64,000 nucleotides of DNA, taken from the NCBI RefSeq assembly GCF_030867095.1, contig NC_081824.1, forward strand, positions 240,928,719 through 240,992,718, read 5' to 3'. The position numbers were made by a program, and so were the translations under genes. The notes below the pieces were generated by a model. That model did no database searches. It worked only from the letters and a program-made list of their open reading frames with translations, and was not told the DNA's origin. This document shows positions 51,401-64,000 of the stretch, piece after piece (the first letter of the stretch is position 1; each line of letters starts with the position of its first letter). Source of the stretch: Alligator mississippiensis. Its lineage: Eukaryota; Chordata; Crocodylia; Alligatoridae.

Positions 51401-53153
51401 TGAAAACCTCCATTCATTCAGTGTCCCTGTTCCCTACCAGCCCATAGCTCCTCTCTTGTTGTTCTCGGGCTTGGTGGGGTCTCAGTCATTCCTTCTTCAA
51501 CAACCATTTCACAGCAGAGTTCTTTTCCCCTTGAGCTTCTAGAGCCATATTACCTTCTCTGGCTTAAGATCTGGGTTTATATGCCTCCCAGGCCCAGCCC
51601 TTTTCTGGTCAGGTGACCCTTTGGGCTGGCTGCAGGTGCTTCCTGATATAGCTTACTGACTTAACTCTAGGGTAGCTTGCTGCTACTAGACAGTGCTGCT
51701 GTAGTATCTTGTCCCCCATGCAGGGCTCTAGCCTATTGTACTACCGCAGAGCAGCTGCAATAGGTACCCATAGTAGATAAATCCCTGGGGACCTGCTGTC
51801 TGACAGCTTATAATGAGCAGCCTTCCCCTCCTGAGGCTCTCCTGACTGCTCTTTCACCCTTAATAAAATGAGCCCTAGGTTCCCTGCTACAGGTGCCTTG
51901 AGTCCAGGGCAGTGCAGTGGTGAGAGTTGAACCTCCCTTTGATTCCTGATCCACCCAAAGTTTTTAAAACAAACTGTCTAGCAGTGGCAGCAGCATTTCT
52001 GTTCAGGCAGTAGTGAGGGATTAACTTGATTTCATGGCTCATTGTAATCTACCTGATTCCTTCTAAACTCTTTATTCCACAGGTATTAATGGCTCTCTCT
52101 CCTTTTTAATGGTAATAATGTTCCACTAATCACGCTATTCTTTCCTCTGCAATTCTGCTGTCTCTTAGTTCCTCCAAGTAACGCAGCTCCTATTTCAAAG
52201 CCCTGAAGACTGCTTTTAACTGTATCTAAAAAAGTATTCAGGTGTGGAAATAATTTTCAATGAAATTATTGGATGCACTGTCAAGATGCTTTGTCAAGAT
52301 GCTCAAGAAGGCTTGATTCAGTTTTATGAAACTAAAGGAGAGATGCAGACTTGCTTCTAATGACTACAGGACTAATGAAACAATATATTGATTATTTTTG
52401 CTTGGTTTGTTCTATTTTTTTAATACAAAACATCTGATAAATCAAACTAATGTACATTCCAAACAAGCTTGTATTTGTTTTTGCTTTGATTTTAAACGGA
52501 ATAATATAGCCCAAGGCCCCTAGCTTATTAGTAAAGCTTCTAGTTTCTTTTACCTGAAGAAAAATATGTATTGTGTAATGTGCAGTGACGCATCACACCA
52601 TGTGCCACCCCCTTTTTCAGAAGCCTAGATCTGTCCATGCTTGAATCTAAGAAGATAGAGAACAACTGGTGTACAGATTCTGAACCCCTCAAAAAGTGTA
52701 ATTCCTTTGTTTTGAAGCTTCATGCTCTGCTTTTAGGGATAGGGACACTACTTTATTTTCAAGGATGCAACCGACTTGGGGCCCAAATTTTGAGCTCAGA
52801 CTGAAATACGAAATCAGGATATTGGCCTGGAAACTGAAGGTGTTAATTTCATGGTGTAAGCACCAAAAAGTAAATGACTAAACAGCAATACATTGGTAAT
52901 CTAAGTGGTGTATTTCTTAAACGTTGTTGTTTTTTCCTTAATGTTGAAGCTTAATTAGTTTCACTGACTGGAATAACACTATTTTAATTCTTTTCTATGC
53001 TTTCTTTAGGTATCAGCATGGTTTTTCACAACCTTTACTGTCTCAGGGCTAAAGGACAAAATCCACTATGTAGAAAGCCTTCAACAGTTGTTCACAGACA
53101 TATCCCCAGAACAAATCGATTTCCCCCCTTTTGTCCTTGAATATGATGCCAGG
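7219..53153 (+). CDS. GDAP2: GDAP2, macro and CRAL-TRIO domain protein (12 coding exons, 3' end outside)
   Basis: GDAP2 (ganglioside-induced differentiation-associated protein 2) has an N-terminal macro domain and a C-terminal CRAL-TRIO lipid-binding-type domain. Human loss of function causes a recessive spinocerebellar ataxia; the biochemical role is unsettled. Twelve plus-strand exons join with consistent phases into 480 codons, [10 protein letters not shown] to VLEYDAR. By position the macro domain spans about residues 43-223 ([20 protein letters not shown] is its signature). The CRAL-TRIO domain spans about 333-480 ([18 protein letters not shown] onward). The human protein has 497 residues, so about 17 codons and the stop lie beyond 64000. 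The start is the first in-frame ATG after an in-frame TAA at 7180-7182, with G at +4 but a weak T at -3. No frameshift or stop interrupts the exons. One intron has a GC donor and the last contains a giant minisatellite. Confidence 0.96.
7821..8440. mobile_element. MITE-like element with GTGTAGACGAAA ends
   Basis: The left end reads GTGTAGACGAAATG. The right end, reverse-complemented, reads GTGTAGACGAAACG, so about 12 bp are terminal inverted repeats. The 620-bp GC-rich interior has no coding capacity I recognise, and a strong hairpin lies next to the right end. I did not find a convincing target duplication, so the exact ends are tentative. Confidence 0.5.
8375..8422. repeat. 18-bp inverted repeat (hairpin)
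   Basis: CCCTAAATTAAAGTGGTG at 8375-8392 pairs with 8405-8422 with one mismatch across a 12-nt loop. It sits just inside the right terminus of the MITE-like element. Confidence 0.8.
8478..8580 (+). repeat. T-rich polypyrimidine tract
   Basis: Long T runs broken by single C or G produce the apparent Phe-rich frames in this interval. It is low complexity, possibly a decayed poly-T tail. Confidence 0.8.
8672..9014. mobile_element. Non-autonomous hAT-like element
   Basis: The left end CAAGGGTATCAAACTC resembles the reverse complement of the right end, which reads CAGGCGTGTCAAAC. The flanking 8-mers CTTATACC and GTTTTTCC agree at five positions, compatible with an aged 8-bp duplication. No transposase is encoded. 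Confidence 0.5.
10465..10604 (+). CDS. GDAP2: GDAP2 coding exon 2
   Basis: The exon encodes residues 59-105 of the macro domain ([20 protein letters not shown] to DELQKLK). The acceptor is TCCTCAG and the donor GTAAAT at 10605. The segment corresponds to the ADP-ribose loop of macro domains but shows [12 protein letters not shown] and no Gly-Gly-Gly run. Confidence 0.95.
11361..11505 (+). repeat. SINE-like interspersed repeat, copy 1
   Basis: The pattern is GTTGTAGCCGTGATGGTCCA, then TTTTTATGGGACCAGCTGTA, then CAAGCTTTCAGGCATAAAGC. The same block order recurs, forward or reversed, at 24.2, 24.5, 26.5 and 39.2 kb. It resembles a repeat common in crocodilian and turtle genomes; the class is not established here. 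Confidence 0.55.
12690..13560. repeat. GC-rich repeat cluster with poly-C tract
   Basis: The block alternates CCCC and GGGG runs, with a C-run at 12819-12832 and a much longer one near 13092-13115. Related phrases recur inside the block in both orientations (for example CAGCTCAGCTCTGAGCTG). It is probably one or two nested non-autonomous elements; ends are not resolved. Confidence 0.35.
13707..13858. mobile_element. hAT-like left end, interrupted
   Basis: CTAGTGATTCTCAACCTC resembles the widespread hAT/Charlie terminus CAGTGGTTCTCAACC. A related terminus, CAGTGATTGTCAACC, occurs at about 14440 in the same orientation. The region between is interrupted by the MITE-like element at 13859, so the true extent is uncertain. 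Confidence 0.35.
13859..14339. mobile_element. MITE-like element with GGGCACATCCAG ends
   Basis: The left end is GGGCACATCCAG and the right end reads GGGCGTGTCCAG when reverse-complemented. The 481-bp interior has a 15-bp hairpin at 14257-14271 and 14289-14303 with one mismatch. TCT flanks both sides, perhaps a 3-bp duplication. The termini are related to the GGGCATGTCTACA ends at 35-36 kb. Confidence 0.4.
14549..14635. repeat. SINE-like fragment
   Basis: TTAGTCTATAAGGTGCATC followed by CTTCAGACTAACATGGCTAA is a familiar reptile SINE-type tail pattern. Only this end is present. Confidence 0.4.
15395..15548 (+). CDS. GDAP2: GDAP2 coding exon 3
   Basis: The exon encodes residues 106-156 plus two bases of Lys157, the heart of the macro domain ([20 protein letters not shown], then [12 protein letters not shown]). 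The acceptor is TTTCTCTAG and the donor GTGAGT at 15549. Confidence 0.96.
15727..15935. mobile_element. Possible MITE (GGGTATGTCTGCACT)
   Basis: The left phrase GGGTATGTCTGCACT and the right-hand CAGTGTAGATGTCTATAGGC are roughly inverted, like the GGGCATGTCTACA elements further right. The match is partial and the ends are uncertain. Confidence 0.3.
16735..17133. mobile_element. Non-autonomous hAT-like element
   Basis: It starts CAGTGGTGCTCAACCC and ends TTGAGCATTACTG, so the termini are inverted repeats of about 13 bp with one mismatch. The flanking 8-mers CTCCAAAG (16727-16734) and CTTTAAAG (17134-17141) agree at six of eight bases, fitting a hAT target duplication. There is no coding capacity. 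Confidence 0.7.
17914..18002 (+). CDS. GDAP2: GDAP2 coding exon 4
   Basis: The exon encodes [20 protein letters not shown] to ATHIAL, residues 158-186 plus the first base of an Arg codon, in the macro domain. The acceptor is GGCTTTAG and the donor GTAAGT at 18003. Confidence 0.95.
18003..21099 (+). other. GDAP2: GDAP2 intron after coding exon 4
   Basis: It holds a G-rich run near 19526-19543 and a GC-rich transposon-like block at 20383-20870. I see no gene or repeat boundary elsewhere. Confidence 0.7.
20383..20870. mobile_element. GC-rich non-autonomous transposon-like block
   Basis: The interior contains ATCTGGGGGGCACATGCCCC, then GGGGTGCGTG, a poly-C run at 20739-20755 and a phrase ending CACCCCAGCCCCACTCCC. 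The same order occurs at 25965-26075 and fragments recur at 29150-29180 and 29645-29700, so it is a dispersed family. No long protein is recognised; the apparent frames reflect GC content. Confidence 0.5.
21100..21176 (+). CDS. GDAP2: GDAP2 coding exon 5
   Basis: The 77-nt exon completes the Arg codon and encodes [20 protein letters not shown] then SELEE (residues 187-212), the last helix and strand of the macro domain. The acceptor is TTCTCTCAG and the donor GTATCT at 21177. It ends in phase 0. Confidence 0.94.
21177..22719 (+). other. GDAP2: GDAP2 intron after coding exon 5
   Basis: This is ordinary AT-rich intron. No gene, RNA or convincing transposon terminus is seen. Confidence 0.7.
22720..22879 (+). 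CDS. GDAP2: GDAP2 coding exon 6
   Basis: The exon encodes [20 protein letters not shown] to [10 protein letters not shown] (residues 213-265 plus one base). It is the end of the macro domain and the start of the acidic linker. The acceptor is TACTTCCAG and the donor GTGAGT at 22880. Confidence 0.95.
23941..23995 (+). repeat. Polypyrimidine/poly-C tract
   Basis: T- and C-only runs end in a long C run before CATACATTTT. It is low complexity. Confidence 0.8.
24240..24410 (-). repeat. SINE-like interspersed repeat, copy 2
   Basis: In reverse orientation it shows ACCTGAAGAAGAATGCACTG, ATCCAATAAAAGATGTCACC and CTGGACCATCACAGCTGCAT, the mirror of the block order at 11361. Confidence 0.55.
24500..24600 (+). 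repeat. SINE-like interspersed repeat, copy 3
   Basis: CCTTTTACTGAACCAACTAT followed by GACAAGCTTTAGGGCACGTG matches the middle and right blocks of the family. It is truncated. Confidence 0.5.
25395..26320. mobile_element. hAT-like element with GC-rich interior
   Basis: The left end CAGGGGTTGTCAACCGGGGG is a typical hAT terminus. The interior shares AAATCTGGGGGGCACATGCT, GGGGGTGCGTGC, TATAGACTTACCTGCA and CCCCTTGCAGGCTAGAATGC with the elements at 20.4, 28.7 and 37.6 kb. The right end is not clear and may be truncated near 26320. Confidence 0.5.
26495..26645 (-). repeat. SINE-like interspersed repeat, copy 4
   Basis: GTCCAATAAAAGATATCTC followed by TTTCCTGGACCATTGTGGCT marks a reversed copy of the family seen at 11361. 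Confidence 0.55.
26933..27083 (+). CDS. GDAP2: GDAP2 coding exon 7
   Basis: The exon encodes [20 protein letters not shown] to [13 protein letters not shown] plus two bases of Asn (residues 266-315). This is the conserved linker between the two domains. The acceptor is CATTGCAG and the donor GTGAGA at 27084. Confidence 0.95.
27084..28400 (+). other. GDAP2: GDAP2 intron after coding exon 7
   Basis: A possible hAT-like left end (CAAAGGTTCCCAAAGTTATT) lies at about 27299 without a matched right end. T-runs occur at 28012-28062. The open frame entering coding exon 8 from 28105 is intron read-through. Confidence 0.6.
28401..28477 (+). CDS. GDAP2: GDAP2 coding exon 8
   Basis: The exon encodes [20 protein letters not shown], then ALYQT, and the first base of Gly. 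The acceptor is CTTTCTAG and the donor GTGAGT at 28478. This segment leads into the CRAL-TRIO domain. Confidence 0.95.
28703..28710 (+). repeat. Target site duplication, left copy
   Basis: GTGATGAA is identical to 29949-29956. Confidence 0.85.
28711..29948. mobile_element. Non-autonomous hAT element with perfect 8-bp target duplication
   Basis: The element starts CAGGGATCCTGGTTTTC and its right end, reverse-complemented, is CAGGGATCCGGGTTTTC, so 16 of 17 terminal bases are inverted. GTGATGAA flanks both sides exactly (28703-28710 and 29949-29956), the 8-bp duplication expected of hAT insertion. The 1,238-bp GC-rich interior encodes no transposase I recognise. It contains an internal inverted pair: the phrase at about 29120-29180 (GGGGGGCACATGTCCCCCAG) recurs reversed at about 29645-29700. 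Confidence 0.88.
29949..29956 (+). repeat. Target site duplication, right copy
   Basis: GTGATGAA is identical to 28703-28710. Confidence 0.85.
31461..31537 (+). CDS. GDAP2: GDAP2 coding exon 9 (followed by GC donor)
   Basis: The exon completes Gly and encodes [20 protein letters not shown] then IDMEK, the first strands of the CRAL-TRIO fold (residues 342-367). The acceptor is GTTTTTGTAG. The exon must end at AAG/GCAAGA, because the next exon begins GCTATC (Ala-Ile), giving MEKAILYFIH as in other vertebrates. Confidence 0.94.
31538..32170 (+). other. GDAP2: GDAP2 intron with GC-AG boundaries
   Basis: The intron begins GCAAGA and ends CCACCTCAG. No GT nearby keeps the frame. GC-AG introns are a known minor class handled by the normal spliceosome. 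No repeat is seen inside. Confidence 0.85.
32171..32310 (+). CDS. GDAP2: GDAP2 coding exon 10
   Basis: The exon encodes [20 protein letters not shown] to [12 protein letters not shown] plus two bases of Lys (residues 368-413), in the CRAL-TRIO domain. The donor is GTAAGT at 32311. Confidence 0.96.
32311..33084 (+). other. GDAP2: GDAP2 intron after coding exon 10
   Basis: AT-rich intron with a C-run at 32503-32518. Nothing else is recognised. Confidence 0.8.
33085..33139 (+). CDS. GDAP2: GDAP2 coding exon 11
   Basis: The 55-nt exon encodes [18 protein letters not shown] (residues 415-432, with the last base of Lys414), a conserved CRAL-TRIO segment. The acceptor is TTAACCAG and the donor GTAAAG at 33140. 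Confidence 0.95.
34314..35001. mobile_element. Non-autonomous hAT element (CAAGGGTGGGCAA ends)
   Basis: The left end CAAGGGTGGGCAAAATACAG and the reverse-complemented right end CAGGGGTGGGCAATTG are inverted repeats. The flanking 8-mers TATTATTA (34306-34313) and TATTAGTA (35002-35009) differ at one base, a good hAT target duplication. The 688-bp interior is GC-rich and non-coding. Near its right side it carries a short CACACACGCACACTGTGC stretch. The left end matches the sequence just left of the giant minisatellite at 54040. Confidence 0.82.
36081..36298. mobile_element. Palindromic MITE
   Basis: ATGGGCATGTCTACATGAGA at the left is mirrored by TCTCATGTAGACATGCCCA at the right, an almost perfect terminal inverted repeat of about 19 bp in a 218-bp element. 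A second, central palindrome lies at 36120-36168. Confidence 0.7.
36120..36168. repeat. Central hairpin of MITE
   Basis: ATTTATTTAGTACTTG pairs with CAAGTACTAAATAAAT across a TATAAT loop; the stem extends further with mismatches to about 21 bp. Confidence 0.85.
36418..36446 (+). repeat. (TG)n microsatellite
   Basis: An uninterrupted TG run of roughly 14 repeats lies in the giant intron. It is unrelated in context to the 54-kb array. Confidence 0.95.
37160..37950 (+). mobile_element. CR1 LINE 3' end, split by a hAT insertion
   Basis: Frames here read [20 protein letters not shown] and then [20 protein letters not shown], the C-terminal end of CR1 ORF2. The 3' end runs ACTAGATGACCTCCTGAGG to TTCTATGAAGG. 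The copy is 5'-truncated and is interrupted from 37582 to 37899 by a younger hAT element. It is inactive. Confidence 0.85.
37582..37899. mobile_element. hAT element nested in CR1
   Basis: It starts CAATGGTTCTCAACC and ends GGTTGAGAGACACTG, inverted termini. The target duplication is GATTAGAT (37574-37581) and GACTAGAT (37900-37907), seven of eight bases. Removing the insert rejoins CR1 consensus-like sequence. Its right interior (CTTGCAAGGTGGAACTCTG, TTTTTCTCCTTTAAAGG) matches that of the element at 28711. Confidence 0.88.
37950..38255. mobile_element. hAT-like fragment (right end)
   Basis: TGGTGGGCCATACTTTACCC followed by ACCCCTG is the inverted form of the CAAGGGTGGGCAAAATAC terminus at 34314. 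The left terminus is not evident. Confidence 0.45.
38430..38671. mobile_element. Small non-autonomous hAT element
   Basis: It starts CACCGATTCTCAACTAAGG; the right end reverse-complements to CAGCGGTTCTCAGCC. The flanks AGCCAGAC and AGCTGTAC match at five of eight bases. It holds a C-run at 38531-38540. Confidence 0.6.
39225..39360 (-). repeat. SINE-like interspersed repeat, copy 5
   Basis: GGGCGCTTTGTGCCCAAAAC, TGGTCCAATAACAGATATTG and AAACCATCAAGACTACAACA give the reversed block order of the family seen at 11361. Confidence 0.55.
39445..41385 (-). mobile_element. CR1 LINE, 5'-truncated, minus strand
   Basis: The element reads right to left. Its 3' end is at about 39445 (reverse complement of TAGTTGTTAGGGTCGGAAGG) and its 5' truncation at about 41385. 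It carries the C-terminal two thirds of ORF2 in three pieces, so it is broken by frameshifts. Age looks moderate, since the frames are still long. Confidence 0.93.
39622..41380 (-). pseudogene. CR1 ORF2 reverse transcriptase remnant
   Basis: Three minus-strand pieces follow one another: 41380-40916 (linker after the endonuclease, [20 protein letters not shown]), 40863-40255 (reverse transcriptase palm, [40 protein letters not shown]) and 40077-39622 (thumb and tail, [20 protein letters not shown]). The catalytic box reads FTDD where CR1 has YADD or FADD, and the upstream DFxKAFD motif reads DFWKAFN. With the frame breaks this indicates a dead copy. It is a passenger in a GDAP2 intron, antisense to the gene. 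Confidence 0.92.
41960..42340 (-). mobile_element. Old CR1/L3-like 3' remnant
   Basis: GTGCTAGAAGGGACTTCAGT, GATAGGTGTTTATCTAACCT and TTCCTTCCTGATCCCAAATG are diagnostic phrases of LINE 3' regions, here reversed and heavily decayed. Confidence 0.55.
42829..43658 (+). pseudogene. CR1 ORF1 (esterase-domain protein), frameshifted
   Basis: Two overlapping frames together give an SGNH-hydrolase-like ORF1. The first (42829-43329) has block [13 protein letters not shown]. The second (43263-43658) has block [14 protein letters not shown], and the C-terminal block GRDGIHLT that carries the catalytic Asp-His pair. One frameshift between 43263 and 43329 separates them. This esterase domain is known in CR1-clade ORF1 proteins and is thought to help membrane or RNP handling. 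Confidence 0.85.
43954..45353. mobile_element. TG...CA insert in CR1, possible solo LTR or unknown element
   Basis: The CR1 endonuclease frame stops at ATTGGACCACAGG and resumes at TAGGAGGGATCGTGTTGGG. The 1,400 bp between start TGCCCGCC and end CTTGCA, as LTRs do. It contains an AATAAA at 44462-44468 and, near the right end, a 9-bp perfect hairpin (GGTGTACCA with TGGTACACC). No clear target duplication is visible (CAGG and TAGG flank it). A long non-ATG frame inside is low-complexity and not a gene. Confidence 0.5.
44730..45060 (+). repeat. Degenerate GCTGCCGGCTCC-type tandem repeat
   Basis: About 330 bp consist of degenerate 15-bp-like units on the theme (GCTGCCGGCTCYRCT). They translate to Ala/Ser/Gly-rich or Pro/Leu-rich peptides in several frames on both strands, the mark of a minisatellite. 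Confidence 0.7.
47902..48058. mobile_element. MITE with 35-bp inverted termini
   Basis: CTTTCCCATAAGAGG followed by GCATTAGTTTGACC at the left is mirrored at 48058-48024 (CTTTACCAGAAGAGG, GCATTAGTTTGACC). The 157-bp element lies just after the CR1 3' end. Its middle is AT-rich with GCTGATTGAATCAGC, another small palindrome. Confidence 0.75.
48390..50260 (-). mobile_element. Old CR1 LINE, minus strand
   Basis: Reverse frames show [19 protein letters not shown] and [17 protein letters not shown] (48687-48947, ORF2 tail) and [17 protein letters not shown] (49894-50088, start of the reverse transcriptase). Between them the frame is destroyed by many stops. It is clearly older than the copies at 39.4 and 42.6 kb. 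A run of about 15 G lies at 50118-50133. Confidence 0.8.
50301..50569. mobile_element. Small non-autonomous hAT element
   Basis: It starts CAGTGGTTCTCAATTAGAC; the right end reverse-complements to CACAGCTCATTAGAC, an imperfect inverted pair that continues with TTGAG/CTCAAG. No clear duplication flanks it. Confidence 0.55.
50600..51891 (+). repeat. LTR-like block with degenerate CTCTTGGGCT repeats
   Basis: From 50960 to 51250 the phrase CCTCTTGGGCTATGGGCCCC and variants recur at irregular spacing. The block ends CCTTAATAAAATGAGCCC then CCCTGCTACA, a polyadenylation signal close to a CA terminus as in an LTR. The start TGTGACTCCCTCTGG would fit, but no flanking duplication is found. Confidence 0.3.
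53010..53153 (+). CDS. GDAP2: GDAP2 coding exon 12
   Basis: The 144-nt exon encodes 48 residues, [20 protein letters not shown] to [13 protein letters not shown], the end of the CRAL-TRIO domain (residues 433-480). The acceptor is TTCTTTAG and the donor GTAAGT at 53154. In other vertebrates a short last exon of about 17 codons follows; it is not in this window. Confidence 0.96.
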
Positions 53154-53867
53154 GTAAGTGGTTTCTGTTGGTTTATACTCCCAAGCATAGCTGCCTTAAA
53201 CCAATACAAAGTAGAATGGATGAAAGTTGTCTTTTAAAAGAGAAGTGAGGAGGATTGCTGTGGAGATAGGCTGCACTTCTGTGGAGTAAGTTGCTTCATA
53301 AAACTCTTATCTACATCAGTTGTTGAGCAGAAGGCTTGGCACAGAAGTAGCCCCTTCTCCTAGTAGTAGCATTTCATATATTTTTTTGGTATGTAAAAAC
53401 AAGGACACCTACTCTTTGCCCAGCCAAGAACTACTTCAGCAGCTTTTCAGAGAGTCCAAGGACCTGACCGAATTTCTGTTAAGGAAAGAAAAATGTAGTT
53501 AACCTAATCAGCTAAATAGATGGAGATGCAACTCTGAGACAGCAGGGTTGCAGACCTGAAGTCTCCAAGAGCTCACACCTCCATCCTGAAGGCAAGGGTC
53601 ACTGGTCTGCCTGACATGTGGAAGTATATTCTGTGGTACTGAAGCAGATGATCCTGTCTCTGACTTGGGTGCAGGCAAGTGGCTGGTGTCTCTGCCCTTG
53701 GGTCCTAGGCAGCCCTGTGTGCGCAAATTTTAGAGGAAGTAGTGCATTCCCCTACTCTTCCCCTGCTCTGCTCTTACTTCTGCTCATCTCCTCACTGTCT
53801 GTTGCCTACAGAACTGATATATGCCATCAACAGCTTTCTCCTGGCCCCCAAATCTGTAGATACTAGG

Positions 53868-54010
53868 GCTGTGCAAAACAGCAGTTTCGTTTAGACTTCC
53901 ATTTTGCTGTTTCAGTGGGACAGTGTTTCGTTTGGAATGGCCTGTTCTGTTTTGTTTCATCGAAACAGTGTTGAAACAGCGAGACAGTTTTGACGTTTTC
54001 CCCATATGCT
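53868..54010. mobile_element. MITE-like AGGGCTGTGCAAAACAG repeat
   Basis: ACTAGGGCTGTGCAAAACAG opens a stretch with repeated GTTTCGTTTGGAAT and inverted CATCGAAACAGTGTTGAAAC phrases. This style is common in reptile hAT-type MITEs; the right end is unclear. Confidence 0.4.
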
Positions 54011-54039
54011 ATAAAGGAGAAGCACAAAACTGCCTATGA

Positions 54040-54316
54040 CGGGGGCGGGCAAAATACGGCCCTTGGATCAGATATGGTCCCCCAGGCCTTTCTTCCTGGC
54101 CTGTGGAACACCTAAAAAGAATTTAGTAAACTAATATTTATTTGCCCCGGCTCCCTGTTAAAGCTGGCTGGTGACAGGGGCAGTAGGACCCAGAGGGAGC
54201 CCTCAGCAGGCTAAAGCAGCCCAGCCCCACCCCACCAGTTCCCTACTTTCCTGCCCCTGCCTTGTTCCATCAACACCTCCATGCCTGGAGCCCAGAGCAT
54301 GGCACCACCCTGGAAC
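54040..54316 (+). mobile_element. hAT-like left end flanking the minisatellite
   Basis: CGGGGGCGGGCAAAATACGG, with CCCTTGG and TATGGTCCCCCAGG following, aligns to the left terminus of the complete element at 34314. The GC-rich interior runs straight into the minisatellite at about 54317, so the array seems to lie within this element. Its right end would be beyond the array. Confidence 0.6.
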
Positions 54317-54439
54317 GGGTGTGTATGTCTGTGTACGCACACGTGTCAGCAGGCATGGGGCAGTGTGTGCGCACCGGCAGGCACAGGGGGTGTGCGTGTG
54401 TGTGTGTGTGTGTGCGTGCGCGCATGCATGCTTGTGCCG

Positions 54440-54837
54440 ATGGGCACAGGGCCTGTGTGTGTGTGCCGACGGGCACAGGGCGTGTGTGTGTGTGTGCCCC
54501 GATGGGCACAGGGCCTGTGTGTGTGTGTGTGTGTGTGCCCCGATGGGCACAGGGCCTGTGTGTGTGTGTGTGTGTGCCCCGATGGGCACAGGGCCTGTGT
54601 GTGTGTGTGTGTGTGTGTGCCCCGATGGGCACAGGGCCTGTGTGTGTGTGTGTGTGTGTGTGCCCCGATGGGCAAAGGGCCTGTGTGTGTGTGTGTGTGT
54701 GTGTGCCCCGATGGGCACAGGGCCTGTGTGTGTGTGTGTGTGTGTGTGCCCCGACGGGCACAGGGCCTGTGTGTGTGTGTGTGTGTGTGTGCCCCGACGG
54801 GCACAGGGCCTGTGTGTGTGCCCCGACGGGCACAGGG

Positions 54838-54880
<43 letters not shown>

Positions 54881-54896
54881 CCCGACGGGCACAGGG

Positions 54897-54937
<41 letters not shown>

Positions 54938-54954
54938 CCCGACGGGCACAGGGC

Positions 54955-54992
<38 letters not shown>

Positions 54993-55009
54993 CCCGACGG
55001 GCACAGGGC

Positions 55010-55047
<38 letters not shown>

Positions 55048-55180
55048 CCCGACGGGCACAGGGCCTCTGTGTGTGTGTGTGTGTGTGCCCCGACGGGCAC
55101 AGGGCCTCTGTGTGTGTGTGTGTGTGCCCCGACGGGCACAGGGCCTCTGTGTGTGTGTGTGTGCCCCGACGGGCACAGGG

Positions 55181-55185
<5 letters not shown>
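54440..55185 (+). repeat. Minisatellite zone A (GCCCCGA-type cores)
   Basis: Most cores start GCCCCGAT, later GCCCCGAC. The extra CC lets GGGCACA of one core pair with TGTGCCC at the start of the next. TG runs are mostly shorter at the left. Confidence 0.85.
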
Positions 55186-55204
<19 letters not shown>

Positions 55205-55213
<9 letters not shown>

Positions 55214-55268
55214 CGACGGGCACAGGGCCTCTGCGTGTGTGTGTGTGTGTGTGCCGACGGGCACAGGG

Positions 55269-55307
<39 letters not shown>

Positions 55308-55322
55308 CGACGGGCACAGGGC

Positions 55323-55366
<44 letters not shown>

Positions 55367-55429
55367 CGACAGCACAGGGCCTCTGTGTGTGTATGTGTGT
55401 GTGTGTGTGTGTGCCGACGGGCACAGGGC

Positions 55430-55473
<44 letters not shown>

Positions 55474-55488
55474 CGACGGGCACAGGGC

Positions 55489-55526
<38 letters not shown>

Positions 55527-55541
55527 CGACGGGCACAGGGC

Positions 55542-55575
<34 letters not shown>

Positions 55576-55893
55576 CGACGGGCACAGGGCCTCTGTGTGT
55601 GTGTGTGTGTGTGTGTGCCGACGGGCACAGGGCCTCTGTGTGTGTGTGTGTGTGCCGACGGGCACAGGGCCTCTGTGTGTGTGTGTGTGTGTGCCGACGG
55701 GCACAGGGCCTCTGCGTGTGTGTGTGTGTGTGTGTGTGCCGACGGGCACAGGGCCTCTGCGTGTGTGTGTGTGTGTGTGTGTGTGCCGACGGGCACAGGG
55801 CCTCTGCGTGTGTGTGTGTGTGTGTGTGCCGACGGGCACAGGGCCTCTGCGTGTGTGTCTGTGTGTGTGTGTGCCGACGGGCACAGGGCCTCT

Positions 55894-55939
<46 letters not shown>

Positions 55940-55993
55940 CGACGGGCACAGGGCCTCTGTGTGTGTGTGTGTGTGTGCCGACGGGCACAGGGC

Positions 55994-56027
<34 letters not shown>

Positions 56028-56042
56028 CGACGGGCACAGGGC

Positions 56043-56073
<31 letters not shown>

Positions 56074-56089
56074 CCGACGGGCACAGGGC

Positions 56090-56123
<34 letters not shown>

Positions 56124-56138
56124 CGACGGGCACAGGGC

Positions 56139-56172
<34 letters not shown>

Positions 56173-56187
56173 CGACGGGCACAGGGC

Positions 56188-56225
<38 letters not shown>

Positions 56226-56240
56226 CGACGGGCACAGGGC

Positions 56241-56284
<44 letters not shown>

Positions 56285-56299
56285 CGACGGGCACAGGGC

Positions 56300-56345
<46 letters not shown>

Positions 56346-56360
56346 CGACGGGCACAGGGC

Positions 56361-56396
<36 letters not shown>

Positions 56397-56411
56397 CGAC
56401 GGGCACAGGGC

Positions 56412-56449
<38 letters not shown>

Positions 56450-56464
56450 CGACGGGCACAGGGC

Positions 56465-56500
<36 letters not shown>

Positions 56501-56515
56501 CGACGGGCACAGGGC

Positions 56516-56549
<34 letters not shown>

Positions 56550-56564
56550 CGACGGGCACAGGGC

Positions 56565-56598
<34 letters not shown>

Positions 56599-56642
56599 CG
56601 ACGGGCACAGGGCCTCTGTGTGTGTGCCGACGGGCACAGGGC

Positions 56643-56688
<46 letters not shown>

Positions 56689-56748
56689 CGACGGGCACAG
56701 GGCCTGTGTGTGTGTGTGTGTGTGTGTGTGTGCCGACGGGCACAGGGC

Positions 56749-56788
<40 letters not shown>

Positions 56789-56803
56789 CGACGGGCACAG
56801 GGC

Positions 56804-56839
<36 letters not shown>

Positions 56840-56854
56840 CGACGGGCACAGGGC

Positions 56855-56890
<36 letters not shown>

Positions 56891-56905
56891 CGACGGGCAC
56901 AGGGC

Positions 56906-56949
<44 letters not shown>

Positions 56950-56964
56950 CGACGGGCACAGGGC

Positions 56965-57002
<38 letters not shown>

Positions 57003-57093
57003 CGACGGGCACAGGGCCTCTGTGTGTGTGTGTGTGTGTGCCGACGGGCACAGGGCCTCTGTGTGTGTGTGTGTGTGCCGACGGGCACAGGGC

Positions 57094-57129
<36 letters not shown>

Positions 57130-57144
57130 CGACGGGCACAGGGC

Positions 57145-57186
<42 letters not shown>

Positions 57187-57201
57187 CGACGGGCACAGGG
57201 C

Positions 57202-57237
<36 letters not shown>

Positions 57238-57252
57238 CGACGGGCACAGGGC

Positions 57253-57288
<36 letters not shown>

Positions 57289-57303
57289 CGACGGGCACAG
57301 GGC

Positions 57304-57334
<31 letters not shown>

Positions 57335-57350
57335 CCGACGGGCACAGGGC

Positions 57351-57381
<31 letters not shown>

Positions 57382-57518
57382 CCGACGGGCACAGGGCCTC
57401 TGTGTGTGTGTGTGTGTGTGCCGACGGGCACAGGGCCTCTGTGTGTGTGTGTGTGTGCCGACGGGCACAGGGCCTCTGTGTGTGTGTGTGTGTGTGTGTG
57501 TGCCGACGGGCACAGGGC

Positions 57519-57556
<38 letters not shown>

Positions 57557-57571
57557 CGACGGGCACAGGGC

Positions 57572-57613
<42 letters not shown>

Positions 57614-57628
57614 CGACGGGCACAGGGC

Positions 57629-57659
<31 letters not shown>

Positions 57660-57675
57660 CCGACGGGCACAGGGC

Positions 57676-57709
<34 letters not shown>

Positions 57710-57724
57710 CGACGGGCACAGGGC

Positions 57725-57764
<40 letters not shown>

Positions 57765-57863
57765 CGACGGGCACAGGGCCTCTGTGTGTGTGTGTGTGTG
57801 TGTGCCGACGGGCACAGGGCCTCTGTGTGTGTGTGTGTGTGTGTGTGCCGACGGGCACAGGGC

Positions 57864-57903
<40 letters not shown>

Positions 57904-57918
57904 CGACGGGCACAGGGC

Positions 57919-57949
<31 letters not shown>

Positions 57950-57965
57950 CCGACGGGCACAGGGC

Positions 57966-58019
<54 letters not shown>

Positions 58020-58034
58020 CGACGGGCACAGGGC

Positions 58035-58068
<34 letters not shown>

Positions 58069-58126
58069 CGACGGGCACAGGGCCTCTGTGTGTGTGTGTG
58101 TGTGTGTGTGCCGACGGGCACAGGGC

Positions 58127-58157
<31 letters not shown>

Positions 58158-58173
58158 CCGACGGGCACAGGGC

Positions 58174-58204
<31 letters not shown>

Positions 58205-58353
58205 CCGACGGGCACAGGGCCTCTGTGTGTGTGTGTGTGTGTGTGTGTGCCGACGGGCACAGGGCCTCTGTGTGTGTGTGTGTGTGTGTGTGTGCCGACG
58301 GGCACAGGGCCTCTGTGTGTGTGTGTGTGTGTGTGTGCCGACGGGCACAGGGC

Positions 58354-58387
<34 letters not shown>

Positions 58388-58402
58388 CGACGGGCACAGG
58401 GC

Positions 58403-58436
<34 letters not shown>

Positions 58437-58451
58437 CGACGGGCACAGGGC

Positions 58452-58485
<34 letters not shown>

Positions 58486-58500
58486 CGACGGGCACAGGGC

Positions 58501-58536
<36 letters not shown>

Positions 58537-58551
58537 CGACGGGCACAGGGC

Positions 58552-58593
<42 letters not shown>

Positions 58594-58694
58594 CGACGGG
58601 CACAGGGCCTCTGTGTGTGTGTGTGTGTGTGTGCCGACGGGCACAGGGCCTCTGTGTGTGTGTGTGTGTGTGTGTGTGCCGACGGGCACAGGGC

Positions 58695-58730
<36 letters not shown>

Positions 58731-58901
58731 CGACGGGCACAGGGCCTCTGTGTGTGTGTGTGTGTGCCGACGGGCACAGGGCCTCTGTGTGTGTGTGTGT
58801 GTGTGCCGACGGGCACAGGGCCTCTGTGTGTGTGTGTGTGTGTGTGCCGACGGGCACAGGGCCTCTGTGTGTGTGTGTGTGTGTGCCGACGGGCACAGGG
58901 C

Positions 58902-58955
<54 letters not shown>

Positions 58956-58968
58956 ACGGGCACAGGGC

Positions 58969-59012
<44 letters not shown>

Positions 59013-59240
59013 CGACGGGCACAGGGCCTCTGTGTGTGTGTGTGTGTGTGTGCCGACGGGCACAGGGCCTCTGTGTGTGTGTGTGTGTGTGTGTGCCGAC
59101 GGGCACAGGGCCTCTGTGTGTGTGTGTGTGTGTGTGTGCCGACGGGCACAGGGCCTCTGTGTGTGTGTGTGTGTGTGTGTGCCGACGGGCACAGGGCCTC
59201 TGTGTGTGTGTGTGTGTGTGTGTGCCGACGGGCACAGGGC

Positions 59241-59288
<48 letters not shown>

Positions 59289-59303
59289 CGACGGGCACAG
59301 GGC

Positions 59304-59343
<40 letters not shown>

Positions 59344-59358
59344 CGACGGGCACAGGGC

Positions 59359-59389
<31 letters not shown>

Positions 59390-59405
59390 CCGACGGGCAC
59401 AGGGC

Positions 59406-59436
<31 letters not shown>

Positions 59437-59493
59437 CCGACGGGCACAGGGCCTCTGTGTGTGTGTGTGTGTGTGTGCCGACGGGCACAGGGC

Positions 59494-59539
<46 letters not shown>

Positions 59540-59580
59540 CGACGGGCACAGGGCCTCTGTGTGTGTGTGCCGACGGGCAC
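55205..59580 (+). repeat. Minisatellite zone B (GCCGAC...CCTCTG cores)
   Basis: Cores are nearly uniform and end CCTCTG. A local cluster of consecutive units at 55715-55860 carries CTCTGCGTG, showing recent short-range duplication. A few CCTGTG cores (for example 55262 and 56702) are intermixed. Confidence 0.85.
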
Positions 59581-59971
59581 AGGGCCTGTGTGCGTGTGTG
59601 TGTGTGTGTGCGCACGCGCCGACGGGCACAGGGCCTCTGTGTGTGTGTGTGTGTGTGTGCGCACGCGCCGACGGGCACAGGGCCTCTGTGTGTGTGTGTG
59701 TGTGTGCACGCGCCGACGGGCACAGGGCCTCTGTGTGTGTGTGTGTGTGTGCGTGTGCGTGCCGACGGGCACAGGTCCTGTGTGTGTGTGTGTGTGTGTG
59801 TGTGTGCCGACTGGCACAGGGCCTGTGTGTGTGTGTGTGTGCGCGCGCGCGCGCGCCAACGGGCACAGGGCCTGTGTGTGTGTGTGTGTGCGTGCCGACG
59901 GGCACAGGGCCTGTGTGTGTGTGTGCCGACGGGCACAGGGCCTGTGTGTGTGTGTGCCGACGGGCACAGGG

Positions 59972-60006
<35 letters not shown>

Positions 60007-60051
60007 CGACGGGCACAGGTCCTGTGTGTGTGTGTGCCGACGGGCACAGGG

Positions 60052-60102
<51 letters not shown>

Positions 60103-60130
60103 ACCGACGGGCACAGGGCCTCTGTGTGTG
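59580..60130 (+). repeat. Minisatellite zone C (mixed, GCGCGC-rich)
   Basis: Cores are preceded by GCGCACGCGCC or a run of GC dinucleotides (59839-59856, 60088-60102), and several TG runs are very short. Single-base variants (ACAGGTCC, CGACTGGC, GCCAACGG) are concentrated here. It marks the junction between the two homogeneous zones. Confidence 0.8.
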
Positions 60131-60276
60131 TGTGTGTGCGCGTGCCGACGGGCACAGGGCCTGTGTGCGTGTGTGTGTGTGTGCCGACGGGCACAGGGCC
60201 TGTGTGCGTGTGTGTGTGTGTGCCGACGGGCACAGGGCCTGTGTGCGTGTGTGTGTGTGTGCCGACGGGCACAGGG

Positions 60277-60315
<39 letters not shown>

Positions 60316-60329
60316 CGACGGGCACAGGG

Positions 60330-60368
<39 letters not shown>

Positions 60369-60426
60369 CGACGGGCACAGGGCCTGTGTGCGTGTGTGTG
60401 TGTGTGTGTGCCGACGGGCACAGGGC

Positions 60427-60457
<31 letters not shown>

Positions 60458-60473
60458 CCGACGGGCACAGGGC

Positions 60474-60504
<31 letters not shown>

Positions 60505-60519
60505 CCGACGGGCACAGGG

Positions 60520-60552
<33 letters not shown>

Positions 60553-60611
60553 CGACGGGCACAGGGCCTGTGTGTGTGTGTGTGTGTGTGTGTGTGCCGA
60601 CGGGCACAGGG

Positions 60612-60644
<33 letters not shown>

Positions 60645-60701
60645 CGACGGGCACAGGGCCTGTGTGTGTGTGTGTGTGTGTGTGTGCCGACGGGCACAGG
60701 G

Positions 60702-60734
<33 letters not shown>

Positions 60735-60947
60735 CGACGGGCACAGGGCCTGTGTGTGTGTGTGTGTGTGTGTGTGCCGACGGGCACAGGGCCTGTGTGT
60801 GTGTGTGTGTGTGTGCCGACGGGCACAGGGCCTGTGTGTGTGTGTGTGTGTGTGCCGACGAGCACAGGGCCTGTGTGTGTGTGTGTGTGTGTGCCGACGG
60901 GCACAGGGCCTGTGTGTGTGTGTGTGTGTGTGCCGACGGGCACAGGG

Positions 60948-60982
<35 letters not shown>

Positions 60983-61078
60983 CGACGGGCACAGGGCCTG
61001 TGTGTGTGTGTGTGTGTGTGTGCCGACGGGCACAGGGCCTGTGTGTGTGTGTGTGTGTGTGTGCCGACGGGCACAGGG

Positions 61079-61111
<33 letters not shown>

Positions 61112-61125
61112 CGACGGGCACAGGG

Positions 61126-61160
<35 letters not shown>

Positions 61161-61174
61161 CGACGGGCACAGGG

Positions 61175-61207
<33 letters not shown>

Positions 61208-61221
61208 CGACGGGCACAGGG

Positions 61222-61256
<35 letters not shown>

Positions 61257-61270
61257 CGACGGGCACAGGG

Positions 61271-61303
<33 letters not shown>

Positions 61304-61317
61304 CGACGGGCACAGGG

Positions 61318-61360
<43 letters not shown>

Positions 61361-61419
61361 CGACGGGCACAGGGCCTGTGTGTGTGTGTGTGTGTGTGTG
61401 TGTGCCGACGGGCACAGGG

Positions 61420-61452
<33 letters not shown>

Positions 61453-61550
61453 CGACGGGCACAGGGCCTGTGTGTGTGTGTGTGTGTGTGTGTGCCGACG
61501 GGCACAGGGCCTGTGTGTGTGTGTGTGTGTGTGTGCCGACGGGCACAGGG

Positions 61551-61585
<35 letters not shown>

Positions 61586-61599
61586 CGACGGGCACAGGG

Positions 61600-61638
<39 letters not shown>

Positions 61639-61777
61639 CAACGGGCACAGGGCCTGTGTGTGTGTGTGTGTGTGTGTGTGTGCCGACGGGCACAGGGCCT
61701 GTGTGTGTGTGTGTGTGTGTGTGTGCCGACGGGCACAGGGCCTGTGTGTGTGTGTGTGTGTGCCGACGGGCACAGGG

Positions 61778-61814
<37 letters not shown>

Positions 61815-61828
61815 CGACGGGCACAGGG

Positions 61829-61861
<33 letters not shown>

Positions 61862-61875
61862 CGACGGGCACAGGG

Positions 61876-61910
<35 letters not shown>

Positions 61911-61924
61911 CGACGGGCACAGGG

Positions 61925-61961
<37 letters not shown>

Positions 61962-61975
61962 CGACGGGCACAGGG

Positions 61976-62012
<37 letters not shown>

Positions 62013-62026
62013 CGACGGGCACAGGG

Positions 62027-62059
<33 letters not shown>

Positions 62060-62116
62060 CGACGGGCACAGGGCCTGTGTGTGTGTGTGTGTGTGTGTGT
62101 GCCGACGGGCACAGGG

Positions 62117-62153
<37 letters not shown>

Positions 62154-62167
62154 CGACGGGCACAGGG

Positions 62168-62204
<37 letters not shown>

Positions 62205-62218
62205 CGACGGGCACAGGG

Positions 62219-62251
<33 letters not shown>

Positions 62252-62310
62252 CGACGGGCACAGGGCCTGTGTGTGTGTGTGTGTGTGTGTGTGTGCCGAC
62301 GGGCACAGGG

Positions 62311-62343
<33 letters not shown>

Positions 62344-62396
62344 CGACGGGCACAGGGCCTGTGTGTGTGTGTGTGTGTGTGCCGACGGGCACAGGG

Positions 62397-62437
<41 letters not shown>

Positions 62438-62451
62438 CGACGGGCACAGGG

Positions 62452-62490
<39 letters not shown>

Positions 62491-62505
62491 CGACGGGCAC
62501 AGGGC

Positions 62506-62541
<36 letters not shown>

Positions 62542-62555
62542 CGACGGGCACAGGG

Positions 62556-62588
<33 letters not shown>

Positions 62589-62647
62589 CGACGGGCACAG
62601 GGCCTGTGTGTGTGTGTGTGTGTGTGTGTGTGCCGACGGGCACAGGG

Positions 62648-62684
<37 letters not shown>

Positions 62685-62739
62685 CGACGGGCACAGGGCC
62701 TGTGTGTGTGTGTGTGTGTGTGTGCCGACGGGCACAGGG

Positions 62740-62774
<35 letters not shown>

Positions 62775-62788
62775 CGACGGGCACAGGG

Positions 62789-62823
<35 letters not shown>

Positions 62824-62993
62824 CGACGGGCACAGGGCCTGTGTGTGTGTGTGTGTGTGTGTGCCGACGGGCACAGGGCCTGTGTGTGTGTGTGTGTGTG
62901 TGCCGACGGGCACAGGGCCTGTGTGTGTGTGTGTGTGTGTGCCGACGGGCACAGGGCCTGTGTGTGTGTGTGTGTGTGCCGACGGGCACAGGG

Positions 62994-63032
<39 letters not shown>

Positions 63033-63046
63033 CGACGGGCACAGGG

Positions 63047-63087
<41 letters not shown>

Positions 63088-63101
63088 CGACGGGCACAGG
63101 G

Positions 63102-63146
<45 letters not shown>

Positions 63147-63160
63147 CGACGGGCACAGGG

Positions 63161-63197
<37 letters not shown>

Positions 63198-63211
63198 CGA
63201 CGGGCACAGGG

Positions 63212-63244
<33 letters not shown>

Positions 63245-63303
63245 CGACGGGCACAGGGCCTGTGTGTGTGTGTGTGTGTGTGTGTGTGCCGACGGGCACA
63301 GGG

Positions 63304-63348
<45 letters not shown>

Positions 63349-63362
63349 CGACGGGCACAGGG

Positions 63363-63405
<43 letters not shown>

Positions 63406-63420
63406 CGACGGGCACAGGGC

Positions 63421-63454
<34 letters not shown>

Positions 63455-63469
63455 CGACGGGCACAGGGC

Positions 63470-63503
<34 letters not shown>

Positions 63504-63724
63504 CGACGGGCACAGGGCCTGTGTGTGTGTGTGTGTGTGTGTGTGTGCCGACGGGCACAGGGCCTGTGTGTGTGTGTGTGTGTGTGTGTGCCGACGGGCA
63601 CAGGGCCTGTGTGTGTGTGTGTGTGTGTGTGTGCCGACGGGCACAGGGCCTGTGTGTGTGTGTGTGCCGACGGGCACAGGGCCTGTGTGTGTGTGTGTGT
63701 GTGTGTGTGCCGACGGGCACAGGG

Positions 63725-63763
<39 letters not shown>

Positions 63764-63777
63764 CGACGGGCACAGGG

Positions 63778-63814
<37 letters not shown>

Positions 63815-63916
63815 CGACGGGCACAGGGCCTGTGTGTGTGTGTGTGTGTGTGTGTGCCGACGGGCACAGGGCCTGTGTGTGTGTGTGTGTGTGTGTGTGT
63901 GCCGACGGGCACAGGG

Positions 63917-63961
<45 letters not shown>

Positions 63962-64000
63962 CGACGGGCACAGTGCCTGTGTGTGTGTGTGTGTGTGTGT
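60130..64000 (+). repeat. Minisatellite zone D (GCCGAC...CCTGTG cores)
   Basis: Cores end CCTGTG, with consecutive CCTGTGTGCG variants at 60165-60490. A few CCTCTG units reappear at 62510 and 63420-63480. Length heterogeneity is almost entirely in the TG runs. The zone continues past 64000. Confidence 0.85.

Follow-up and report, generated by a model that had tools for sequence, protein, structure and literature searches.

Classical hypervariable minisatellites consist of 10–100-bp units with a GC-rich core, extend over kilobases and show degenerate edges, a homogeneous interior and blocks of variant units. The TG-rich tandem array in the last intron of the GDAP2 gene of Alligator mississippiensis is like them in unit size, GC-rich core, length, edges, interior and blocks, but its unit is largely a variable TG microsatellite and its seed appears to be the variable number tandem repeat (VNTR) of a transposon. 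This array lies in a stretch of 64,000 bp (C1:240928719-240992718, contig NC_081824.1), hereafter the window, and the genome searched for comparison amounts to 2.35 Gb. Tandem repeats within transposons have been described in miDNA4, a miniature inverted-repeat transposable element (MITE) of the Tc1-mariner type in Xenopus tropicalis, in the central repeats of DINE and in Tetris TIR-220 (PMC9659126). Like these repeats, the alligator system comprises a non-autonomous DNA transposon with a short internal array, which is dispersed and amplified at some loci. Unlike them, the carrier at GDAP2 is hAT-like, and each unit joins (TG)n to a GC-rich core; Table 1 of the review contains no row under the label hAT. 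Mar, a Buster-type hAT MITE of Drosophila, is likewise non-autonomous and shares the 8-bp target site duplication (TSD) of the form nnnTAnnn, which is the form of Buster-type hAT elements (PMC3517528). The two elements are compared here by description, and the terms 'tandem repeat' and 'minisatellite' have 0 occurrences in the text of the Mar paper, in contrast to the array-bearing element of the alligator.

We are highly confident that the GDAP2 array is a transposon-seeded minisatellite, namely the expanded internal VNTR of a copy of a hAT element. The left arm that borders the array is dispersed, with 1766 first-look candidates genome-wide, and all 40 candidates that were scored match it, the locus itself included; the 39 others show 73–87% identity. 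The comparison set consists of the GDAP2 copy and 19 of the 39 other left-arm matches with loci, nine of which were printed out (L-numbers denote genomic loci read for comparison, except L009, which is the stretch downstream of the window). Eight of the nine printed copies begin with a terminal inverted repeat (TIR) and a left arm, followed by a TG-rich VNTR and then by a right arm; L024, the ninth, has a VNTR that continues beyond the stretch read. The VNTRs of the printed copies carry GCAGGCACAGGGGCAG-like cores. A typical copy is about 0.8–1.0 kb long, its two arms enclosing a short TG-rich VNTR. The right arm of the GDAP2 copy aligns to all 15 right arms compared at 75–84.5% identity, two of them in part only.

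The ends of the element are recurrent too. Most of the 19 copies share a CAGGGGTGGGCAAAATACGGCCC-like TIR on the left and a CCCAAAATAATTGCCCGCCCCTG-like TIR on the right, although the right one is insecure in L018, L024 and L029 and weak in L028. Among the eight printed copies that have a right arm, this arm ends in the CCCAAAATAATTGCCCGCCCCTG-like TIR in seven, and L028 is interrupted. In 11 of the 20 copies the two 8-bp TSDs agree at six or more positions, whereas 5000 re-pairings gave 0.6 such copies on average and never more than 4; the central TA of nnnTAnnn is present in 10 of these 11. On its TIRs and TSDs, the carrier of the array is best classified as a probable non-autonomous hAT element with the Buster-type form of TSD. 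As a separate observation, a further element starting with CAGGGGTCGGCAACC is apparently inserted in the hAT right arm of L028 (C3:113.85 Mb), and the 8-mers at the two ends of this host copy are identical. A segment at 34309-34377 of the window, in GDAP2 intron 11, resembles the inner hAT element's left end (71% similarity) and is perhaps a further copy.

The GDAP2 hAT copy extends from position 54040 of the window to L009:3156, and its ends are diverged yet alignable to the TIRs of the family. It is nested. The surrounding TIR element, which ends at L009:3771 and is flanked by the TSD GTAGATAC/ATAGATAC, is itself dispersed (1317 first-look candidates genome-wide; 40 of 40 scored match, again including the locus itself). 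In two other copies of this outer element, L088 and L089, the sequences that flank the hAT copy at GDAP2 are directly adjacent to each other (226/227 and 213/214, respectively), which reveals the empty insertion site. The GDAP2 hAT copy inserted into this older dispersed TIR element. The outer element also contains a TG repeat at L009:3305-3360, and two other outer copies are TG-rich at that place; the outer TIR element may thus carry a TG seed as well.

The first-pass annotation, made from the sequence of the window, had reported a large TG-rich tandem array inside GDAP2. The array is real: Tandem Repeats Finder (TRF) detects 201.5 copies with a period of 47 at 54516-63948 (score 9265), 204 cores can be parsed, and the 19-mer TGCCGACGGGCACAGGGCC has 197 matches with up to 2 mismatches in the window compared with 0 in 100 shuffles. 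The array was said to run from 54317 to the end of the window; it is indeed one TG-rich array, but the segment 54317-54436 is degenerate and regular units begin at 54437. The sequence is an alternation of (TG)n with a 17-bp GC-rich core. The 203 complete units are 29–69 bp long (median 47), and the longest TG run per spacer is 5–25 repeats (median 14). The core is exactly CCGACGGGCACAGGGCC in 177 of 204 cases, and substitutions relative to the majority core number 16 in 3434 bp of 202 units (about 0.5%), one core of different length being excluded. Elsewhere in the window the core has nothing beyond 9–13-base matches. Unit variants are strongly clustered along the array: the TC/TG junction variants form 17 runs (mean 102.5 and minimum 77 in shuffles), and CG-bearing spacers form 14 runs (mean 37.1, minimum 26). 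A stop-free frame of 1589 amino acids traverses the array at 54187-58956; it was rejected as a gene because it is mechanical, the majority unit being stop-free in every frame.

Table 1. Coordinates in the window of the array, the two nested elements and the preceding GDAP2 exon.
Feature	Position	Strand	Basis or remark
Expanded minisatellite, 204 parsed cores, (TG)n-CCGACGGGCACAGGGCC-(TC or TG)	54437..64000	+	TRF, parse, pattern search
Degenerate left edge of the internal VNTR (GTCAGCAGGCATGGGGCAG ... GGCAGGCACAGGGG)	54317..54436	+	resembles unexpanded copies
CC-core units, mostly with TC junction	55213..59569	+	variant blocks; 59 consecutive TC units from 56733
Middle zone with many CG-bearing spacers and variant cores	59570..60504	+	parse, run counts
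Inner hAT left arm, beginning with TIR CGGGGGCGGGCAAAATACGGCCC	54040..54316	+	dispersed repeat genome-wide
Inner hAT 8-bp TSD GCCTATGA	54032..54039	+	partner GCTTATAA at L009:3157-3164, 6/8 identical
Outer dispersed TIR element, left part (TAGGGCTGTGCAAAA...)	53864..54031	+	ends and TSD read
GDAP2 coding exon 12	53010..53153	+	tblastn; donor GTAAGT at 53154

The position of the array in the gene agrees with the first-pass annotation, which had placed it after coding exon 12 and before an unseen last exon of GDAP2. By tblastn with the human GDAP2 protein as query, 12 collinear exons on the + strand of the window cover residues 1-484 of 497; two further weak matches (E 7.6 and 3.4) were dropped because they are out of place. 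The last exon (ENGPYYSSYPSSPDL and the stop) is found at L009:5674-5718 behind a CAG acceptor, 5.7 kb beyond the end of the window, so that the right flank is also GDAP2. As assembled, the last intron measures 16,520 bp with the N run counted in, and the array lies about 1.2 kb from its donor and about 3 kb from its acceptor. The TG strand of the array is the sense strand of GDAP2. Exactly 2,500 N (64001-66500) directly follow the window, and behind them lie about 140 bp of units judged degenerate by eye; because of this run and these units the 204 cores are a lower bound for the GDAP2 array, the right end being hidden. The 10 kb upstream of the window are free of N.

Other features of the window are of less consequence for the array. 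An exon 1-like frame of what we take to be WDR3 lies on the - strand near 3.2 kb. Two segments of GDAP2 intron 11, at 39446-40996 and 46385-47873, are inverted copies of one repeat by self-match; from the translations of their open reading frames they look by eye like a long interspersed nuclear element, and more precisely CR1-like. A GC-rich 60-bp tandem repeat of 2.4–2.7 copies, with long open frames, occupies 44813-45012. Across the window, 0 Rfam families reach the gathering score, and the tRNA scan returned 0.

Within one genome the same hAT element forms a series of seeds, INTERMEDIATE and giants. The VNTR is unexpanded in 17 of the 19 other copies (45–204 bp); of the remaining two, L018 does not show its right border and L024, on C6, is expanded. 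A 24-mer from the right border has 206 exact matches genome-wide (control, 0), and every fifth of the first 100 of these matches was taken as a sample of 20 copies. The left border is secure in eight of them, with VNTRs of 48–279 bp (median 120), and weak in the other 12, for which 9–301 bp were measured; no kilobase array was seen in these 20 copies. At least one core-like motif, as defined by a regular expression, is present in 12 of the 20. Several of the motif-less copies carry TG runs with AGGGAGGG-like stretches, so that the seed differs between hAT subfamilies.

Three expanded copies were met. The C8 copy (L090:1-2601; C8:68726400-68729000) contains 42.9 copies of a 37-bp unit by TRF, an expansion of about 1.7 kb with no N, and its flanks match both hAT arms at 83% and 72% identity. 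The C6 array (L024, L066 and L067) runs from about 41134772, a weak border, to at least 41146424; this span of 11.65 kb includes exactly 5,000 N and an unread part of 2.7 kb. The segment 41143208-41146424 is known from pattern matches only, and the exact C6 core has no match between 41143658 and 41146330. With at least 204 units, the GDAP2 array is the longest readable expansion met. The first-pass annotation had called an array of this size uncommon; the array is large, but the C6 copy is of comparable span and the C8 copy is intermediate. The core patterns separate the two giants: all 40 exact genome matches of the C6 core, GTAGGCACGGGGCAGTG, fall at C6, and the GDAP2 core with up to 2 mismatches has 215 genome matches, 197 of them in the window, as compared with 15 for a backwards-pattern control. 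Three other core variants have 6, 11 and 12 genome matches, which are dispersed except for four at C8:68.727-68.728 Mb. From these pattern counts, GDAP2 and C6 each possess a locus-private core. Core patterns miss any array whose private core is a different one, so that the count of giants is a minimum; and because two of the three expanded copies run into N, further expanded copies of this kind may hide in assemblies.

The array carries traces of how it grew. Adjacent units of equal length occur 35 times versus 16.2 expected, the maximum in 5000 shuffles being 33, and the lag-1 correlation of unit length is 0.174, a value reached by 0.35% of 2000 shuffles. Of the 11 lags tested, only lag 1 is interpreted; lag 8 is reached by 2.65% of shuffles, uncorrected, and the others are unremarkable. 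No repeated run of identical units exceeds 3, which 200 shuffles also give (range 2–4), and no higher-order repeat blocks were seen. These patterns fit a stepwise local duplication of single units together with slippage of the TG tracts, and a length polymorphism of the alleles is plausible from this local structure. The arms of the GDAP2 copy, whose mean Kimura two-parameter (K2P) distances are 0.229 (left, versus 19 others) and 0.194 (right, versus 15 others), are far more diverged than the core with its 0.5%, so that the present homogeneity of the array is much younger than the hAT insertion. A palindromic or hairpin-forming core as the driver of growth was dropped because folding of the majority unit does not exceed that of its shuffles (z -0.64); of the other units folded, the edge CCCCGAT variant does exceed it (z -2.72), unlike the C6-type (z -0.80) and seed-type (z 0.17) units. 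The sequence of events is very probably as follows. The last intron of GDAP2 held an older TIR element, into which a non-autonomous hAT element inserted. The internal VNTR of this copy gained a private core and expanded from a handful of units to over 200, probably through slippage of the TG tracts and through single units that were exchanged unequally or gene-converted.

Several observations weigh against this account of origin and growth. Nine of the 20 copies fall below 6/8 in the TSD comparison: in L018, L024 and L029 the right end is insecure, in L017, L021, L025 and L033 the 8-mers appear by eye to be offset mutually, and L026 and L035 reach 5/8. At GDAP2 the TSD matches at only 6/8 and the TIRs are diverged. 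None of the other left arms among the 20 is as diverged as that of the GDAP2 copy (the others lie at 0.149–0.181, L034 at 0.228); for the right arm the others lie at 0.157–0.186, L034 at 0.334 and L031 at 0.458. In the right-border sample, 8 of 20 copies lack the core-like motif. The 2,500-N run hides the right end of the array, and the growth mechanism is deduced from one assembled haplotype. Membership in the hAT superfamily is judged from the TIRs and TSDs. The variable seeds and the unread part of the C6 array have no bearing on how the GDAP2 copy arose.

The alternative that survives best, although it is unlikely, would make the array a functional RNA element: through TDP-43 or poly(UG) (pUG) quadruplexes, its UG lattice would tune how GDAP2 pre-mRNA is spliced, which 3' end it receives or whether it is retained in the nucleus. 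The array is in sense orientation, 147 of the 203 spacers have a TG run of at least 12 repeats, and there is room for 386 non-overlapping (UG)6 sites. The pUG fold requires 12 GU repeats, and it binds and inhibits DNMT1 in vitro (PMC9945446). According to a preprint (PMC12697283), TDP-43 binds UG repeats very tightly with a 12-nt site, acts on splicing, polyadenylation and nuclear retention, and competes with the pUG fold. Human introns contain about 20,000 pUG tracts of at least 12 repeats (PMC12697283); the tracts at GDAP2 are likewise intronic, sense and of at least 12 UG repeats, but as predicted from the DNA they would be 147 in one intron, split by a GC-rich core. If transcribed, the GDAP2 pre-mRNA would carry a very long UG-repeat lattice; a TDP-43 lattice on it is a fair prediction, and any effect would be a prediction as well. 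Against a functional role, the array lies, in the assembly, about 1.2 kb from the donor and about 3 kb from the acceptor, and expansions of the same element also occur at C6 and C8. A broader form of the idea, to which we assign a still lower probability, is that the hAT family scatters UG-minisatellite seeds, a few genic copies of which would become kilobase-scale hubs for TDP-43 or the pUG fold and act as length-variable RNA-protein switches; it leans on the 206 exact right-border copies and on over a thousand first-look candidates. We infer instead that the array in GDAP2 is mostly a neutral by-product.

It is very improbable that the length of the array is an assembly artefact, that is, a false expansion or a mis-join. 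The N runs at GDAP2 and C6 are both round numbers, 2,500 where the GDAP2 array ends and 5,000 where the C6 array is broken, which speaks for such an artefact. However, the unit variants shift in ordered blocks, the longest repeated run of only three identical units is unlike the long exact block copies of a false duplication, the C8 expansion was assembled without N, and both GDAP2 flanks are in the correct order. A stand-alone intronic minisatellite or satellite that arose independently of a transposon can be given hardly any credence: the derived core is indeed private to the GDAP2 locus (197 of 215 matches, against the control of 15), but both flanks are arms of one dispersed element, and other copies of this element have a TG-rich VNTR at the corresponding internal position, in many with related cores, which largely refutes an independent origin. 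The reading of the array as an orphan satellite with an unnamed core is likewise replaced: its repeats are the expanded internal VNTR of one copy of a dispersed hAT element.

The expansion of a hAT-internal VNTR at GDAP2 is an instance of a known process, the birth of tandem repeats within transposons; it stands out through its hAT carrier, its nested position, its size and the graded series in one genome. Searches of the PubMed Central literature returned no paper joining GDAP2 and minisatellite, and none joining crocodilian, hAT, MITE and transposable elements; the letters of the TIR occur in a single paper, on bovine oocytes, and among the titles listed none describes this element. This is not proof that the hAT element is undescribed. 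An orphan array has become a case with a traced origin. In one genome the element exists with a few units (unexpanded), with about 43 (intermediate) and with more than 200 (giant), a natural series for studying the timing and causes of the take-off of an internal transposon repeat. Furthermore, the intron of a conserved gene harbors a very long UG lattice, at which allele length and splicing are measurable.

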